Positions 38,360 through 45,714 of a stretch of DNA of 49,315 bases are shown here, piece after piece. The translations under genes were made by a program, and so were the position numbers. The notes beneath the pieces were generated by a model. The model did no database searches and was not told where the DNA came from. It saw only the letters and a program-made list of their open reading frames with translations. This DNA is from Spirochaetales bacterium (lineage in GTDB: Bacteria; Spirochaetota; Spirochaetia; DSM-2461): positions 1 through 49,315 of the forward strand of contig JAQQAM010000178.1 of the NCBI GenBank assembly GCA_028532905.1. The letters run 5' to 3'. Every line of letters begins with the position of its first letter. Positions within the stretch are counted from its first letter, which is position 1.

Positions 38360-38387
38360 AGTATAGAACAAGAGCCGGGGGATTCAA
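38360..38387 (-). promoter_or_regulatory. Candidate promoter giving a leaderless GH13 mRNA
   Basis: On the minus strand TTGAAT (38387-38382), 16 bases and TATACT (38365-38360) precede the ATG (38352) by seven bases. The -35 box overlaps the T tract of the upstream SPOR-gene terminator. Confidence 0.5.
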
Positions 38388-38417
38388 AAAAAAAAGGGAA
38401 GAACCGCGGTTCTGCCC
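38386..38417 (-). terminator. Terminator of the fliS-polA-SPOR operon
   Basis: On the minus strand GGGCAGAACCG pairs with CGGTTCTTCCC (38417-38396, one mismatch). Ten T follow. It ends the SPOR gene transcript. Confidence 0.8.
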
Positions 38418-38443
38418 TTTCATACAACTGTTTTACAGATCTG

Positions 38444-39100
38444 TCAGGAGTTCAAAGGGACCTGTTTTGTAATAGTAGACTGAATAACAAAACTCTCTTC
38501 ATAGCCTTCGAGCCCTTTAACCTGTACAGAAAACTTGTCAGCCTCTTCTTTGGTATTAAAGGCGCCGATTCTGACGCGGTACACTGCTTTTCCGTTGACA
38601 TCTTTGGTCTGTACGGTTGTGGTCAGTCCCTTTTCCTTCATAAAAGAGCCTACTGATTCGGCCTTGCTCAGAGAGCTGTAGGAACCGACCTGAATCCAGA
38701 ACACATCCACGCTGATATTTTTATACTGGGGTTCGGCTTTCACCACTGCCGGTTTTACTTCAACTGCTTTGACCGGTTCAGGTTCTGCAGGAACGGCTTC
38801 AGCTTCTACAGCTTCAGGAGTATCCACAACCTCTATTTCAATGGAATCATCACTAGTGTCTATGAGACCGGGAACTTCTTCATTGTCTCTGGCCATCTCA
38901 ATGGCATCGAAGACTTCCGTTTTTTCAGGGACAGGAGCGGTAGCCGCCAGTACAGGTTTCAGATCTTCCTGGTCCTTGTCAGGTGCAAAAAAGAAAAACC
39001 CGGCGGTCCCTACAATGATCAGGAGACCCAGCGCCGAGAGAAGAACCCACAGTGTATTCAGATTATTATCAACAGAAGTGTTATTTTCTTTATTATCCAT
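38444..39100 (-). CDS. SPOR-domain membrane protein
   Basis: The 218-residue protein has an N-terminal cytoplasmic tail, one transmembrane helix (LWVLLSALGLLIIVGTAGFFFF, about residues 17-38), an acidic Pro/Ala/Val/Glu-rich linker and a C-terminal SPOR domain (about 130-205: FWIQVGSYSSLSKAESVGSFM, VYRVRIGAFNTKEEADKFSVQVK). SPOR domains bind denuded glycan strands at division sites. I chose ATG 39100 with GGAGAG upstream; the longer in-frame start would overlap coaE. It is the last gene of the operon. Confidence 0.82.
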   Translation of the reverse strand: MDNKENNTSVDNNLNTLWVLLSALGLLIIVGTAGFFFFAPDKDQEDLKPVLAATAPVPEKTEVFDAIEMARDNEEVPGLIDTSDDSIEIEVVDTPEAVEAEAVPAEPEPVKAVEVKPAVVKAEPQYKNISVDVFWIQVGSYSSLSKAESVGSFMKEKGLTTTVQTKDVNGKAVYRVRIGAFNTKEEADKFSVQVKGLEGYEESFVIQSTITKQVPLNS

Positions 39101-39105
39101 ACTTT

Positions 39106-39696
39106 TTATCTCTCCGGTGGAAGATCTTTTATCCACTTATCCACCTTTTTGCGCAGAGCCTTTCTGGTGGAGCCGTTTCTTATAATATAAGTATCGACTC
39201 TGGAAAAAAAATATTGAGACTTAAGTTCTCTCTGAGACCGGAATCGGCTTATAAGATCTTTTACAGACCGGCGGTCCCTTTTATACGCCCGGAACAGCCT
39301 GACAGGAAGGGGGGCTTCCACCCATAGAATCCGGTCGCACTTCTTCCAGAAATCCGCCTTCTGCAGAGCCGCAGCATTCACAATCAGGGTTTCCCCCCTC
39401 CTCAGATCCGCCAGAATAGCATCCAGCCTGCGATGGAGTTCGGGATACAGAATATCTTCCAGTTTTTTCAGAGCCTCCGGATTGGTGAACACGATTCTGC
39501 CCAGTTCCACCCGGTCTATCTGGTCCTCTTCATCCAGAATACTGCTGCCGAATGCTGCGGAAAGGGCTGCGGCCAGGGCTCCCAGTGCCTCATGGGCCAT
39601 CAGGTCCATATCGACGGTTTCAAACCCCTTTTCCTGCAGCAGAGCCGCAATCTGATTCTTGCCGGAGCAGCTTTTTCCGGCCAGCCCGATGATCAT
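39106..39696 (-). CDS. coaE: Dephospho-CoA kinase
   Basis: The 196-residue protein has the P-loop GLAGKSCSGKN (residues 4-14) and the CoaE Asp at VDMDLMAH, then ALAAALSAAFGSSIL, a region where the usual LG(x)xVFxxP motif reads LGRIVFTNPEAL, then LHRRLDAIL and LWVEAPLPVRLFRAYKRD. It performs the last step of coenzyme A synthesis. The start is two bases beyond the polA stop codon, so coaE is coupled to polA, an arrangement known in other bacteria. Confidence 0.9.
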   Translation of the reverse strand: MIIGLAGKSCSGKNQIAALLQEKGFETVDMDLMAHEALGALAAALSAAFGSSILDEEDQIDRVELGRIVFTNPEALKKLEDILYPELHRRLDAILADLRRGETLIVNAAALQKADFWKKCDRILWVEAPLPVRLFRAYKRDRRSVKDLISRFRSQRELKSQYFFSRVDTYIIRNGSTRKALRKKVDKWIKDLPPER

Positions 39697-39698
39697 GT

Positions 39699-42392
39699 CT
39701 AGTGGATATCTCCCCAGTTGCTGCCCTCTTCCACATTCACCTTAAGGGGAACATCCATCTGCCAGGCCCCTTCCATAACCTTTTCCAGAAGAAAACGGCA
39801 GTCCTCTACCTCATCCCGGGGAACTTCCAGAATGATCTCATCATGAACCTGCAGGAGCACTGAGGCTTTAAGATTTTTCTGCTTCAGTGCCCAGTCGATC
39901 CCGAGCATGGCCCTTTTGACAATATCAGCCGCAGAGCCCTGTATTCTTGTATTGACAGCCACTCGCACAGCCGCGGATTTTTCCATTTTATTCTTGCTGT
40001 TGATCTCTTTCACGGGTCGGAAGCGGCCCAGAATCGTATGGACACCGCCCTCCTCTTCAGCCAGAGCGACCGTATCGTCCACAAACTGTTTGATCCCGGA
40101 GTACTCTTCAAAATAGGTCTCAATAAAACCGGCAGCCTCCCCCCGTGAGATCTTCAGTTCGTTGGACAGTCTGAAGGCCGACATGCCGTACATAACACCG
40201 AAATTTATGGTCTTGGCAATACGCCTCTGAGACGCTGTTACATCTTCTATATCCACCTTGAAGATGGTAGCCGCCGTTTTGCTGTGAACATCCTCACCGC
40301 TGATAAAGGCATCTTTCAGCCCCTGATCCTGGGACAGATGAGCCAGAACCACCAGCTCTATCTGGGAATAGTCCGCCGAAAGGAAGACACATCCCTCTTT
40401 CGGACGGAAAGCCTGGCGTATCCGTCTGCCGTTATCGTCCTTTACAGGAATATTCTGCAGATTGGGATCTTTGCTGGATATTCGGCCTGTGGCCGTACCG
40501 GTCTGAATAAAGGAGGTATGAATCCGGCCGCTGTCGGGATGCACCATTCCGGGCAGGGTATCCACATAGGTGGATTTCAGTTTGGCCAGGGCCCGGTGAA
40601 TCAGAATCTTTTCAGGAACAGGATCTTCTTTGGCCAGCTGCTTCAGAACCGATGTATCCGTGGAATACCCGCTCTTAGTTTTCTTCACAGGCTGCAGTTT
40701 TCTGTCCACAAACAGAACCTCCTGCAGCTGCTTGGTGGAGTTGATGTTAAACTCCTTGCCGCAGAGCTCATAGATTTCAGTTCTCAGTGCCGTCAGAGCG
40801 TCTTCCAGTTCTTCCCCATAGGCAATCAGCTCCTCCCGGTTCAGAAGGATTCCCCTCATCTCCATATCCGCCAGGATTCTGACCAGCGCCATCTCCAGAC
40901 TGAAATACAGTTCACTCAGATTATCCTCTTCCAGGCGCACACTGAGAACCTCGAAGAGGCGCCAGGTGATATCCGCATCTTCCGCTGCATAGTTGACAGC
41001 CTCCTCCAGGGGAACATCGGAAAAAATGCCCCCTTTGGGGACCACATCCTTGAAATGAACCGTTTTATAGGCCAGATAGCGCTCGGCCAGGAAATCCATA
41101 TTCAGGGGAGATCCGGCATCGATCATCCAGGCGGCAATCATGGTATCAAAATATATATTGGCCGGATTAATGCCCCAGCGCTTCAGAACTTTATAGTCAT
41201 ACTTGATGTTCTGTCCGATGATCTTTACTTTTTCATCTTCCAGAAGCTCTTTCAGGGTACTGCGGATGAGATCTTCGGGAAGGCACTCTGCGCCTTCTGC
41301 CCGGATGGGTATGTAACAGGCTTGTTCATGACCCACCGAGAGGCAGATTCCCACAGGATTGGCCTTCATGGGATCAATACTGTCGGTTTCCGTATCCAGT
41401 GAGACCATCCCCTTGTCCCGGACATCCTTCACCCACTGATCCAGATCCTCCTGTGTCAGAACGGCGCTGTATTCTCCTTTCTCAGCTCTGGGAATATCTT
41501 TGTTCCCGTCGGCTTCCGGAGCACTGAGATCGGGTACCAGCTCAAGGGCCAGACTCTGCATCCCCTCTTTCATCAGAAGCTGTGCGGCTTCTTCGGAATA
41601 AAGATCCTTGATGGTCATGGCCTCTATGGGCATATCCACCGGAACATCCTGACGGATAACAACAAGGTCTCTGCTGAAATAGGCATTCTCCCTGTTATCC
41701 TCCAGTTTCTGTCTCTGGCTTTTACTTTTAATTTCATCCAGATGTTCATAAATGCCATCCAGAGTATTGTACTGCTGCAGCAGTTTGGCAGCCGTTTTGG
41801 GACCGATCCCGGCGACTCCGGGAACATTGTCCGCTGTATCTCCCACCAGAGAGAGGTAGTCCACAATCTGTTCGGGCCAGACACCCCGGTCTTCAAACAC
41901 ATCATCCCGGTCCATCTCAATTGAGCTGCCCTTCTCCAGCTTCATGATTTTTATGCCCTCACCTGCAAACTGCAGAAGATCCTTGTCACCGGAAATGATA
42001 TAGGAGGCCCGTCCCTCTTCCCTGGCTTTTACAGCCAGTGTCCCCATGATGTCATCGGCTTCAAAACCGTCCACGCGGATGGCAGGGATACCCATAAGTT
42101 CCAGAATTTCTTCAATCAGGGGGATCTGTTCAAACAGATCATCGGGAGACTTATCCCTTGTTGCCTTGTATTCGGGAAACATTTCATGACGGAAGGTCTT
42201 TGTCTTTGAGTCCAGGGTGACGGCAAAACGGTAGCCCTCCAGTTTATTCAGAAGGCTGAGGAGTGTACGGAAAAATCCGAAAACAGCAGAGATATTCTTT
42301 CCTTCAGGATTTTTGAGAGGATTCCTGATGAATCCGAAATAGGATCGGTAAATGAGACTGTAACCGTCCAGGAGGTAGAGAGGGTCTTTCAT
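39699..42392 (-). CDS. polA: DNA polymerase I
   Basis: The 897-residue enzyme has the 5'-3' exonuclease (residues 1-290: DSKTKTFRHEMFPEYKATR, EADDIMGTLA, GDTADNVPGVAGIGPKTA). The 3'-5' exonuclease (about 315-500) keeps its motifs intact (DTETDSID, NIKYDYKVLK, YAAEDADITWRL), so proofreading is probably active. The polymerase has motif A (LSADYSQIELVVLAH), motif B (RRIAKTINFGVMYGMSAF) and motif C (LLQVHDEIILEV). The gene overlaps the small ORF upstream by four bases (ATGA). Confidence 0.97.
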   Translation of the reverse strand: MKDPLYLLDGYSLIYRSYFGFIRNPLKNPEGKNISAVFGFFRTLLSLLNKLEGYRFAVTLDSKTKTFRHEMFPEYKATRDKSPDDLFEQIPLIEEILELMGIPAIRVDGFEADDIMGTLAVKAREEGRASYIISGDKDLLQFAGEGIKIMKLEKGSSIEMDRDDVFEDRGVWPEQIVDYLSLVGDTADNVPGVAGIGPKTAAKLLQQYNTLDGIYEHLDEIKSKSQRQKLEDNRENAYFSRDLVVIRQDVPVDMPIEAMTIKDLYSEEAAQLLMKEGMQSLALELVPDLSAPEADGNKDIPRAEKGEYSAVLTQEDLDQWVKDVRDKGMVSLDTETDSIDPMKANPVGICLSVGHEQACYIPIRAEGAECLPEDLIRSTLKELLEDEKVKIIGQNIKYDYKVLKRWGINPANIYFDTMIAAWMIDAGSPLNMDFLAERYLAYKTVHFKDVVPKGGIFSDVPLEEAVNYAAEDADITWRLFEVLSVRLEEDNLSELYFSLEMALVRILADMEMRGILLNREELIAYGEELEDALTALRTEIYELCGKEFNINSTKQLQEVLFVDRKLQPVKKTKSGYSTDTSVLKQLAKEDPVPEKILIHRALAKLKSTYVDTLPGMVHPDSGRIHTSFIQTGTATGRISSKDPNLQNIPVKDDNGRRIRQAFRPKEGCVFLSADYSQIELVVLAHLSQDQGLKDAFISGEDVHSKTAATIFKVDIEDVTASQRRIAKTINFGVMYGMSAFRLSNELKISRGEAAGFIETYFEEYSGIKQFVDDTVALAEEEGGVHTILGRFRPVKEINSKNKMEKSAAVRVAVNTRIQGSAADIVKRAMLGIDWALKQKNLKASVLLQVHDEIILEVPRDEVEDCRFLLEKVMEGAWQMDVPLKVNVEEGSNWGDIH

Positions 42393-42802
42393 AATTCAAT
42401 ATCAATCAGCCTGGGAGCTGTTTCCTTTTTACTGGATTTGGGCAGACGGCCTGTATCAACATTCCGTCTTTCCCGTTCCAATAAGGTTAATCCAGTTTTG
42501 AGAGAGCTTCTACCCTTATTTCTTAATTTGGATGACTGATTTCTCAGTTCCTGCAGGACATTCAGTTCAGATTGAAATTGAACAGCGAAATCAGGAACAT
42601 CCTGAAGCCATTTTGACAGGATTCTCTCTTCATTCAGAATTTTTGAGGATATTTTTTTTTCTTCCATGAAAATCAGCTCAAAGTCCGATTTAAGGGGAGT
42701 TTCACTGAGGTGAATCAGCTTTTGAAGAAGCCGGTTGTATTCACTGTAGTCACTGCAGAGGGTTTTGATCTGAAGCGGGAACCACTGTCCGGCTGCGGAC
42801 AT
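42389..42802 (-). CDS. Hypothetical helical protein next to fliS (possible flagellar chaperone)
   Basis: The 137-residue protein is predicted to be mostly alpha-helical with coiled-coil character (SDYSEYNRLLQKLIHLSETPL, EEKKISSKILNEERILSKWLQ, QSELNVLQELRNQSSKLRNKG) and a basic, Ser-rich tail ending LIDIEL. No family is recognised. Its position between fliS and polA, and the helix length, suggest a FlgN/FliT-like secretion chaperone, which is inference. The start is five bases after the fliS stop codon. Confidence 0.5.
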   Translation of the reverse strand: MSAAGQWFPLQIKTLCSDYSEYNRLLQKLIHLSETPLKSDFELIFMEEKKISSKILNEERILSKWLQDVPDFAVQFQSELNVLQELRNQSSKLRNKGRSSLKTGLTLLERERRNVDTGRLPKSSKKETAPRLIDIEL

Positions 42803-42806
42803 TCTG

Positions 42807-43229
42807 TTATCCGGCTATATTCACACCCATGGGTGCTGCGCCGCCGGCATTCTGGTTCTGACCTTCAATGGAGGCCCAGGCAGTGCGGAGTTCGTCCATC
42901 ATATTACGGATTTCGCTGAGGGATTGAGCAGACTTGTCCATATTGGCCTGGAGAAGCTGCTGATTGAAAAACATATACAGATTATAAAGATTTTTGGCGA
43001 TATCCCCACCCTTCTCAAAATCCAGAGAGGCCATGAGTTCGGTGATAATATCCTGGGTTTTTACAATGTAGTTGTGAACTTTATCCAGTTTGCGGCTGGG
43101 TCTGTTCATCTCTTCAATTCCAAGATCCAACTGCTTGAGAGCTTCATCATACAGCATGACAATCAGACGTCCCTGACTGGCTGTTTTCACTTTAGTCTGT
43201 CGATAGGCGTTTAACGGATTCTTATTCAT
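42807..43229 (-). CDS. fliS: Flagellar export chaperone FliS
   Basis: The 140-residue protein matches FliS: NAYRQTKVKTASQGRLIVMLYDEALKQLDLGIEEM, a four-helix bundle segment, and IITELMASLDFEKGGDIAKNLYNLYMFFNQQLLQANM. It keeps flagellin unfolded for secretion. GGGAGGG precedes the ATG, and a sigma-28-type promoter lies about 34 bases upstream. The family commonly ends with WxxI; here TAWASIE is followed by an unusual Gly/Ala-rich tail. Confidence 0.93.
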   Translation of the reverse strand: MNKNPLNAYRQTKVKTASQGRLIVMLYDEALKQLDLGIEEMNRPSRKLDKVHNYIVKTQDIITELMASLDFEKGGDIAKNLYNLYMFFNQQLLQANMDKSAQSLSEIRNMMDELRTAWASIEGQNQNAGGAAPMGVNIAG

Positions 43230-43262
43230 GTAAGAGAAGCCCTCCCCTGGTTCATCAATTCA

Positions 43263-43289
43263 TTTTCGGCAATAGATCAACGATTCTTA
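43263..43289 (-). promoter_or_regulatory. Sigma-28 (FliA) type promoter for the fliS operon
   Basis: On the minus strand TAAG (43289-43286), a 15-base spacer and GCCGAAAA (43270-43263) match the flagellar sigma consensus TAAA-N15-GCCGATAA at 10 of 12 positions. It starts transcription near 43256, leaving a short leader with a Shine-Dalgarno. The 43290-43458 remainder shows no gene. Confidence 0.75.
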
Positions 43290-43458
43290 AATAAAAATAC
43301 AGAAAAAAAACATTTTTCTCCTGTGGTGTAAAAAACTATATGTCATCTGCAGAATAATCAAGGCTGATTTGGCTCTTATCCTGCAGTCTGATCCAATTTT
43401 AACGCATCAGGAACTCATAGGGTCCAGCCTTCCGGACACATCCGTAAGGCAGAGATTT

Positions 43459-45714
43459 TCAAAAGCGGCTGCTCTTCATCATTTCCTGCAGCTCTACAAA
43501 CTCATAACCCTGTCTGACCAGCTCATCCACAATAGTCGGAAGCATCTGAATCAGATATTCCTTCTGCCCTTCCTCTTCCCCCAGGGTCAGAGTGATAATG
43601 GAACCGGGTCTGACTCTGGCTAAGAGAGTCTCCATTTCCTTAACCGCGTCATATCTGCTGCCGTTCACACGGCTGATTCTGTCCTGAACAGGAATATCCG
43701 TACCAATAAAAACATATTGCATGGAAGCCGAAGTCTCAAGAATATCTGCATTTAAATAATACCCCGGGGTATGCCAGAGCATGGCCATTTCCTTTCCTGT
43801 GGCGATGAAGTAGTCGTCCTCATTTCTGGCGATTCCTTTTTTCAGGAAAGTCTTGTCTATCTGATACTCTCGGGAAGACAGATCAAACCAGGTATGGAAC
43901 AGAGAGCCCACAGTATGACCGCTGTCTGCTATCATTTTTGTTTCCCGGGGATTGGCATGTATAAAATCTCCATTCAGAAAGAATGATGCTGGCAGCTTGT
44001 AGCGTTCCAGGATGTTCAGAAGCCCTCTTGTTCCCTGGGCACTGTCCACCGCATTGATCACAAGGGTAACCTCTTTTGAGTCTGTACTGTGGCCTCTGTC
44101 AAAATACCAGGGATTGGACGCGGTACGGGAGCTGCGCGGAGCAGGACTGTCGATTCCGGATGGCTTGTTGAACAAGGGCAGCAGATCGGATGTGTATAAG
44201 CCCTCCATATTCCTTATTTTCAGGGAAGAGCTGTACCAGCTGCTCCGCAGGGGCTCCAGATAGACTCTGTAATTGCTGTTGGTGTTTCGGGCCGGACGGA
44301 TTTCCTGAGGATCTTCCACAGAGATCCAGCTCAGAGCCTCATTGTATTTGAACTGTCTGTTTCCGATTTCACTGATCAGCTCTCCCCCGGGATTAAAACC
44401 GGCGCCGCTGCTCTGACTCAGAGAAATGATGGTTCCGTCACTGATTGCCGGTGTATAGATCCGGGTCGTACTGCGTCCGGCTGAATAATAGTTGTCCTTG
44501 CCCCAGTGAAACTGAAGGGGACGGTCCTGAGAGAAACTTTGAACCAGAGTGGAATCGGAACTGTTGTGTACAGAGACTCCATCCTCTTTCAGGAGGGCAT
44601 ATCGGCTGCCGTCAGGTGATGCAGACAGGGCTGTGAACCGGCCTTGATCCTGAAGAATGAAGTGTCCCGCCTCTCCGTATCTGTACAGGGAAGAGGTACC
44701 GCTTGTCCGGTTTTTCACTAACACCAGGAGTATTCCCTTATCCAGCCAGAGGGTATCCAGAAGCTCATCATGAATTCCGAGATGAAGAGTCGGAGTCTGT
44801 GCGGTTCCCGTCTCTGTGTCTGTATCGAGAGACAGAACCATCAGATGCTCTTCATTTTTGATAAGAATCAGATTCCCTCCGCTGCTGTCTGTAATGTACC
44901 GGTCAAAAACTGGATTGAAGGGGACCGGCAGGCGTCCCCGGACTGTCCCCTTCCGGAAGGGTTCGGAATAAAAAGAGCGGGTAAAAAACTCGGAGCTGTG
45001 AATTCTATACAGATGCCTGTCTTTAAGAATATACAGATAATTTCCTTTACCCCATTGAACCGACTGTATATCCAGAAAGCCGGTGTTCCTGAAAGACTCT
45101 GCCGGTATCCGGCCGGAGAGATACTGTTCAATGGAAAAATAGTACAGCTCCCGGCCTCTCCGGTAAATGAAATACCGGGAATCGGGAGACCATTTTACTA
45201 TTTTTTCCTGATACTCTCTGTTCAGACGGCTTGTGACGGTGAGGCTGACCTTCATGACCCTGTCATACAGAATAAGAGAGGCCCTGTCTTCCTGATCTTC
45301 CCGGATATAGGCTGCAAACCGCCCGTCGGGGCTCATTTCCAGGAACTGAAGGGCCAGCGGAGAGACCGGCTGACCGGTGGACAGGGAGGGCATGAAGTCC
45401 ATTTCCTGCCAGGTTCCGTTATCTGAGTCATACAGATAACACCCCAGGTGGTTGTGAATCATCAGCTCATTGGGTCCTGGAAAATAGAATGACCTTTCCG
45501 GGTACATGGTAAGAGCTTCCAGTGTGAGAGTATCAGCCCGTCCTCTGAGGAGAGAGGTATAGGCATCTCCCGAGAGTGAGGGAATCCGGACAGTTGTTAT
45601 GATCTCATTTCTGCTGTTTATATCAAAGGATTCAAAATCAAGCCTGCGGTTTTGAGCAGAAACAGACAGGGAAACAGTGAGGATCAGGATTAAAAACGAA
45701 AGTTTGGAACGCAT
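43459..45714 (-). CDS. Exported beta-propeller protein with C-terminal NodB-like (polysaccharide deacetylase) domain, degenerate
   Basis: The 751-residue protein has a signal peptide (MRSKLSFLILILTVSLSVSA). A long beta-propeller-like region (to about 500) shows repeated SPDGR/SPDSR motifs (for example SPDGRFAAYIRED, SPDSRYFIYRR, SPDGSRYALLKED). The C-terminal 200 residues have the NodB fold (SKEVTLVINAVDSAQGT, LPASFFLNGDFIHANPRETKMI, GHTVGSLFHTWFDL, WHTPGYYLN). The metal-binding TFDDG is replaced by INAVDS and the HxxxH pair is not conserved, so deacetylase activity is doubtful. A GATAAT box nine bases before the ATG and the absence of a ribosome site suggest another short-leader transcript, but the -35 is poor. 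Confidence 0.72.
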   Translation of the reverse strand: MRSKLSFLILILTVSLSVSAQNRRLDFESFDINSRNEIITTVRIPSLSGDAYTSLLRGRADTLTLEALTMYPERSFYFPGPNELMIHNHLGCYLYDSDNGTWQEMDFMPSLSTGQPVSPLALQFLEMSPDGRFAAYIREDQEDRASLILYDRVMKVSLTVTSRLNREYQEKIVKWSPDSRYFIYRRGRELYYFSIEQYLSGRIPAESFRNTGFLDIQSVQWGKGNYLYILKDRHLYRIHSSEFFTRSFYSEPFRKGTVRGRLPVPFNPVFDRYITDSSGGNLILIKNEEHLMVLSLDTDTETGTAQTPTLHLGIHDELLDTLWLDKGILLVLVKNRTSGTSSLYRYGEAGHFILQDQGRFTALSASPDGSRYALLKEDGVSVHNSSDSTLVQSFSQDRPLQFHWGKDNYYSAGRSTTRIYTPAISDGTIISLSQSSGAGFNPGGELISEIGNRQFKYNEALSWISVEDPQEIRPARNTNSNYRVYLEPLRSSWYSSSLKIRNMEGLYTSDLLPLFNKPSGIDSPAPRSSRTASNPWYFDRGHSTDSKEVTLVINAVDSAQGTRGLLNILERYKLPASFFLNGDFIHANPRETKMIADSGHTVGSLFHTWFDLSSREYQIDKTFLKKGIARNEDDYFIATGKEMAMLWHTPGYYLNADILETSASMQYVFIGTDIPVQDRISRVNGSRYDAVKEMETLLARVRPGSIITLTLGEEEGQKEYLIQMLPTIVDELVRQGYEFVELQEMMKSSRF

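Follow-up and report, generated by a model that had tools for sequence, protein, structure and literature searches.

The five-gene cluster that runs from fliS to an FtsN-like SPOR gene is very probably bracketed by two promoters for the flagellar sigma factor FliA (sigma-28), one ahead of fliS, which would serve this gene and a second flagellar chaperone with read-through into polA and coaE, and one lying within the 3'-terminal part of the coaE coding sequence, which would serve the SPOR gene. Sigma-28-type sites are present before both fliS and the SPOR gene, hence the genes at both ends of the cluster look FliA-controlled. The cluster is part of a 4.98 Mb draft genome, whose named relatives are Spirochaeta sp. 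UBA5339 and Spirochaetaceae MAGs, and it lies on a contig of 49,315 nt (about 49 kb) which was analysed as a whole and is referred to below as the window.

An old and nearly gapless gene cluster

The minus strand carries a polysaccharide-deacetylase-like gene and, 229 nt after it, fliS, a 137-aa ORF, polA, coaE and the SPOR gene (Table 1). Only 4 nt separate fliS from the 137-aa ORF, the latter overlaps polA by 4 nt and polA is 2 nt from coaE, which bears out the tight or overlapping spacing described in the initial annotation of this DNA. The SPOR gene is likely to start at ATG 39100, which has GGAG upstream, with GTG 39136 as an alternative, and the terminator-like hairpin that follows it is predicted at −15.8 kcal/mol (z −2.4). 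The same order, which had been suggested as a check in relatives, was found in most of the 60 relatives, as fliS, an ORF of 130–165 aa, polA, coaE and a SPOR gene, and the same five genes are kept in seven Borrelia-like genomes from a family with genomes of 0.9–1.8 Mb. The arrangement is therefore old as well as nearly gapless, and judging by its gaps, overlaps and hairpin this compact, conserved cluster looks co-transcribed from fliS to the SPOR gene.

FliA was not found in any of the eight Borrelia-like genomes searched, and it is this lack together with the genome size that makes them Borrelia-like. At the Borrelia-like loci L189–L195 a CheY-like receiver gene lies directly 5' of fliS, most cluster genes overlap and fliS starts with TTG. 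A further seven genomes without fliS keep polA, coaE and a following membrane-helix gene; six of them are also without FliA and one (G036) has it.

The middle ORF is, from sequence matches within its family and a predicted fold, a putative fast-evolving FlgN-like chaperone. FlgN (PF05130) was matched by nine of 19 aligned family members (best 1.2e-8), the window protein being among those without a match. The predicted structure is a three-helix fold (pLDDT 83) which aligns to Pseudomonas aeruginosa FlgN (2fup) with TM scores of 0.61/0.65, but with a Foldseek E of 1.2 and a low rank. A sequence search of solved structures with a FlgN-like profile was also tried and returned coiled-coil noise only.

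The last protein of the cluster has an N-terminal membrane helix, a linker and a C-terminal SPOR domain. Its match to the NCBIfam ftsN model (E 3.9e-10, 39.8 bits) is below the cut-off of 107.65, hence we call it FtsN-like, and the suggestion that it may work like FtsN rests on this architecture. A SPOR domain was present in the post-coaE protein of all seven FliA-positive relatives scanned and of the one Borrelia-like genome scanned, and was not recognised in the two scanned post-coaE proteins of genomes without fliS and FliA, which keep the membrane helix.

Table 1. Features of the cluster and its surroundings. Coordinates refer to the window unless a locus is named.
Feature	Position	Strand	Remark
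Polysaccharide-deacetylase-like gene	43459–45714	−	
Possible sigma-70-like site	43335–43361	−	TTGATT-N15-TATAGT; block conserved in 5/6 genus members
Putative sigma-28-type promoter of fliS	43263–43290	−	TTAAG-N15-GCCGAAAA
fliS, flagellin export chaperone	42807–43229	−	Pfam FliS E 1.4e-37; ATG at 43229
FlgN-like flagellar chaperone, putative, 137 aa (small ORF of the initial annotation)	42389–42802	−	No Pfam match of its own
DNA-conserved stretch in FlgN-like ORF	42482–42509	−	90–117 nt before polA; 3/5 aligned genus members
polA, DNA polymerase I	39699–42392	−	Pfam DNA_pol_A
coaE, dephospho-CoA kinase	39106–39696	−	Pfam CoaE
Putative sigma-28-type site for SPOR gene, within coaE codons	39191–39217	−	TCAA-N15-GTCGATAC
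FtsN-like SPOR gene	38444–39100	−	Pfam SPOR E 1.3e-15
Intrinsic-terminator-like hairpin and T-run after SPOR gene	about 38385–38421	−	
Post-coaE gene without recognisable SPOR domain	L196, 2861–3661		Membrane helix retained
Post-coaE gene without recognisable SPOR domain	L201, 5441–6430		Membrane helix retained

A conserved sigma-28-type site before fliS

The fliS site, TAAG-N15-GCCGAAAA at 43263–43289, matches the consensus TAAA-N15-GCCGATAA at 10 of 12 positions and lies 33 nt upstream of the fliS ATG. Judged alone in the window it is at chance level, as five matches at 10/12 occur there and shuffles expect 3.28; within the 110 nt before fliS, none of 200 shuffles attained 10/12. The site is convincing because it is conserved across relatives. 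For this comparison we took the 110-nt stretches before fliS of the window and of 60 relatives, which represent the order and, with one or two genomes per family, many families of the class; at least 10/12 was reached in 26 of the 61 sequences versus 0.85 expected in shuffles (maximum 4), and at least 9/12 in 43 versus 6.5. Within the genus, all six members keep THAAG-N15-KCCGARAA before fliS, and few other parts of the intergenic region are as well conserved; the class-wide form is THAAG-N15-NNCGATAA. A weight matrix built from 42 fliS sites outside the genus gave the six genus members 12.5–16.3 bits against a shuffle mean of 2.2 over all rows, a comparison that is informative for these six and circular for the other 55 rows. 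FliA itself is encoded in the genome (TIGR02479, 295 bits, above cut-off). The 10/12 match to the flagellar sigma consensus, first pointed out in the initial annotation, is confirmed by this conservation and by the presence of the sigma factor.

Borrelia-like fliS upstream regions (n = 7, from the family without FliA) reach 8–9/12, near the shuffle means of about 8. In Treponema-like genomes, where fliS is unlinked to polA, the site is still there (9/12 in L136, 11/12 in L135), hence the putative promoter belongs to fliS. Scanning the whole genome for the consensus with up to two mismatches tells little, as 593 sites were found and the reversed pattern gave a near-equal 557. The four MIINHN-type flagellin genes of the genome (L158–L161) have best matches of 9, 9, 9 and 10 of 12 in the 200 nt upstream; with at most 10/12 the flagellins are no strong positive control, and we count this against the FliA reading. 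Most of these flagellin leaders share a GCAAGGATGC-like hairpin, a possible CsrA-type site.

About 105 nt before fliS there is also a CTTGATT...TATA block with a short 15-nt spacer, adjacent to a long hairpin that runs out into a stretch of T. From its sequence this might be a sigma-70 promoter or a piece of the upstream gene's terminator hairpin.

A second sigma-28-type site within the coding end of coaE

A second promoter inside the operon had been envisaged, for example within the small ORF. A clear candidate of the sigma-28 type does exist, located not in that ORF but near the 3' end of the coaE coding sequence, from where the expected leader before the SPOR ATG is about 84 nt. It coincides with a region which stood out in a scan for synonymous conservation across the five genes (window plus two genus members, permutation within amino acids), namely coaE codons 159–178 (p 0.003). 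The window's own copy matches at only 9/12 and alone is not unusual (p 0.59). Among relatives, the fliS-derived matrix scores 8.81 on SPOR upstream regions (40 rows) versus 2.07 in shuffles, and 44 of 46 coaE ends reach at least 9/12 versus 12.3 expected, with a maximum of 19, in synonymous-codon shuffles that preserve the protein. Of the 51 FliA-positive genomes, 47 attain at least 9/12 within the final 180 nt of coaE.

The codon alignment of these 51 genomes reveals how the site is written into the coding sequence. Valine is encoded as GTC in 32/32 cases (22% elsewhere in coaE), glutamine as CAA in 28/28 (39% elsewhere in coaE), alanine as GCC in 14/14, aspartate as GAT in 40/42 and tyrosine as TAT in 31/33, and the preceding codon ends in T in 47/51. 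Ranked by codon invariance, the Val, Gln, Asp and Tyr columns of the block take the first four places among 107 testable coaE columns, and no fliS or polA column has a z-score as extreme as that of the Val column.

It could be argued that the block is kept only for the amino acids of CoaE or through codon preference, without any promoter. Indeed, it overlaps a conserved CoaE segment (Q-x5-VD-x3-I-x-N), and in the FliA-negative clades the CoaE residues at the block are changed too. However, the amino acids do not account for the codon choices, which synonymous shuffles fail to reproduce as a site; most of genus g6 has other residues at the block (K, AE), yet retains TAAA-N15-GCCGAAAT; and FliA-positive genomes whose coaE lacks the site have one in the gap between coaE and the SPOR gene. 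We give very little credence to this explanation, and the codon pattern shows selection on the DNA of the putative promoter, beyond that on the protein.

Another possibility is that the element is the promoter of a different sigma factor, or a site for some other regulator, since TTTCCA-16-TATAAG overlaps it and the TATAAG hexamer could be a sigma-70 −10. The conserved part, however, is the FliA consensus with its 15-nt spacing, it is not kept where FliA is absent, and sigma-70-like scores before the SPOR gene are near shuffle level, making this alternative highly improbable. The coaE element is more readily read as a FliA promoter.

The coaE site is present and absent with FliA

FliA was sought in the genome itself and in sets of 30 and 64 genomes. 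The coaE comparison started from 108 loci, from which 25 without a usable coaE (23 with no hit, two cut) and one duplicate genome were removed. The resulting 82 rows comprise 51 with FliA, 22 in which FliA was not found and nine outside FliA testing (motif present in 7/9). A −10 element in register in coaE was detected in 48 of the 51 FliA-positive rows versus two of the 22 others, figures which are not independent samples because FliA losses amount to about two events. By family, the in-register −10 occurs in 23 of 24 with FliA-positive rows and in two of seven with FliA-negative rows. In the polA tree the FliA-negative rows fall in two clades of eight and 12, both motif-less; of the two FliA-negative genomes with the motif, G017 lies outside these clades and G064 is not in the tree. 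Two rows (G027 and G028) had been scored as motif-less before the FliA search, and FliA was then found to be absent from both.

The exceptions are few. All three FliA-positive rows without the in-register element carry a 10–11/12 site in the coaE–SPOR gap instead: 11/12 in G138 (attained by 1/1000 shuffles), 11/12 in G110 (0/1000) and a weak 10/12 in G153 (47/1000). Among the rows outside FliA testing, G199 likewise has a gap site of 11/12 (0/1000 shuffles) and G120 has 9/12 only, with no clear site. The same stretch in FliA-negative rows is near shuffle level except in G017, G064 and G073, the last with 10/12 out of register. As to the two FliA-negative genomes that keep the motif, G017, at 77% completeness, branches within FliA-positive genomes, and G064, at 94%, carries fliS; in both FliA was likely missed through missing sequence.

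Transcription of polA and coaE

The initial annotation had suggested that polA, coaE and the SPOR gene may share flagellar control through the fliS promoter. The near-zero gaps, the 4-nt overlaps and the single terminator-like hairpin at the cluster end agree with this, as does the failure to detect a sigma-28 site before polA beyond shuffles (fliS matrix, 50 rows, 1.58 vs 1.53); before coaE the matrix gave a slight excess (8 of 47 at a score of at least 6 vs 3.0 expected). The SPOR gene, however, has its own conserved FliA-type site and could hence be expressed independently of the one before fliS, so that this part of the proposal is not supported in its original form. The polA–coaE–SPOR-like order also persists without fliS and FliA. 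Moreover, coaE should be essential, hence sole dependence on FliA would render FliA essential. We regard a fliS promoter acting alone on all three genes as unlikely. What stands of the proposal is the putative FliA-type promoter before fliS, with FliA encoded in the genome, and the compact cluster that looks co-transcribed; for polA and coaE, shared flagellar control may come about by read-through.

An independent sigma-70 supply of polA was also looked for. One reading has polA and coaE served by a sigma-70 promoter inside the FlgN-like ORF, with only the end genes answering to FliA. In the last 240 nt of this ORF, best sigma-70-like scores average 6.89 versus 6.06 (sd 0.23) in synonymous shuffles, and 15 of 46 rows score at least 8 versus 9.2 in shuffles, a modest enrichment that barely exceeds the shuffle maximum of 14 and was obtained with an E. 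coli matrix. The window's own best site, TTGATA-17-TCCAGT, is poor. The ORF also contains a stretch of conserved DNA (Table 1), with synonymous conservation at codons 96–107 (p 0.007, window plus two genus members). Its DNA is nearly identical in the window, G005 and G004, genomes whose proteins are 54–63% identical, it sits in an imperfect inverted repeat (ATAAGG...CCTTAT), and a search of ten genomes detected it in three, with a single copy in each. It is, however, unlike a promoter and missing from two of the five aligned members. An internal sigma-70 promoter is a real possibility, though we place it somewhat below an even chance.

The data do not support a model in which DNA repair and CoA synthesis answer to flagellar control exclusively. 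From the layout of the cluster, polA and coaE are probably read through from the fliS promoter, and most likely they are transcribed from several sources.

Proposed mechanism and implications

In the preferred reading, with a FliA promoter at either end of the cluster, FliA polymerase would use both sites, as their motifs, their conservation and their joint presence and absence with FliA suggest. The first would express FliS and the FlgN-like protein, both export chaperones, its transcript probably continuing through polA and coaE, and the second would place the gene of the FtsN-like SPOR protein in the late flagellar class. Additional sigma-70 transcription of polA and coaE would come from upstream read-through or an internal promoter.

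A wider and more tentative proposal, to which we give rather less than even credence, is that in nearly all FliA-bearing Spirochaetia FliA directly times the FtsN-like protein via the coaE promoter, a septum-binding protein thereby awaiting the finished hook-basal body, and that polA and coaE receive FliA read-through. If true, an FtsN-like peptidoglycan-binding protein would join the FliA regulon of a whole class with periplasmic flagella, and flagellar assembly would be linked to division or wall remodelling. The promoter would be preserved in housekeeping codons while its sigma factor exists, and lineages without this sigma factor lack the site. As the coaE site tracks FliA, this putative intragenic promoter can be tested by comparison alone.

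Comparison with known systems

In the literature covered, mostly outside subscription journals, we found neither the fliS–polA–coaE–SPOR arrangement nor a FliA site in coaE. The promoter type is known; its location, its target and its class-wide tracking of FliA appear to be new. The FtsN-like protein shares the helix-linker-SPOR layout of FtsN, but here it scores below the ftsN cut-off and its gene is apparently under FliA.

Borrelia is described as being without sigma-28 (PMC11607428). The closest spirochaete parallel is Treponema denticola flaB2, for which a mapped start and a sigma-28 promoter (−35 TTAA, −10 CCGATAA) are given in PMC9481697, with FliA binding reported from the authors' preliminary data. 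Its elements match those of the fliS sites described above, but it is intergenic and belongs to a flagellin gene.

The E. coli comparisons draw on a single study (PMC4183435). As in its fliDST class 3 operon, fliS is followed by a small chaperone gene behind a FliA-type promoter; unlike that operon, there is no fliD here, the second gene is FlgN-like and polA–coaE come next. According to the same study, 30 of 52 E. coli FliA sites are inside genes, and FliA acts from within flhC on motAB-cheAW (site TAAA-N15-GCCGATAT). The putative coaE promoter resembles this flhC site in that a FliA-type promoter in the coding DNA of an upstream gene serves the next transcription unit. It differs in that host and target are both flagellar in the flhC case, whereas here the host encodes a CoA enzyme and the target is FtsN-like, and in that the coaE site follows FliA across a class.
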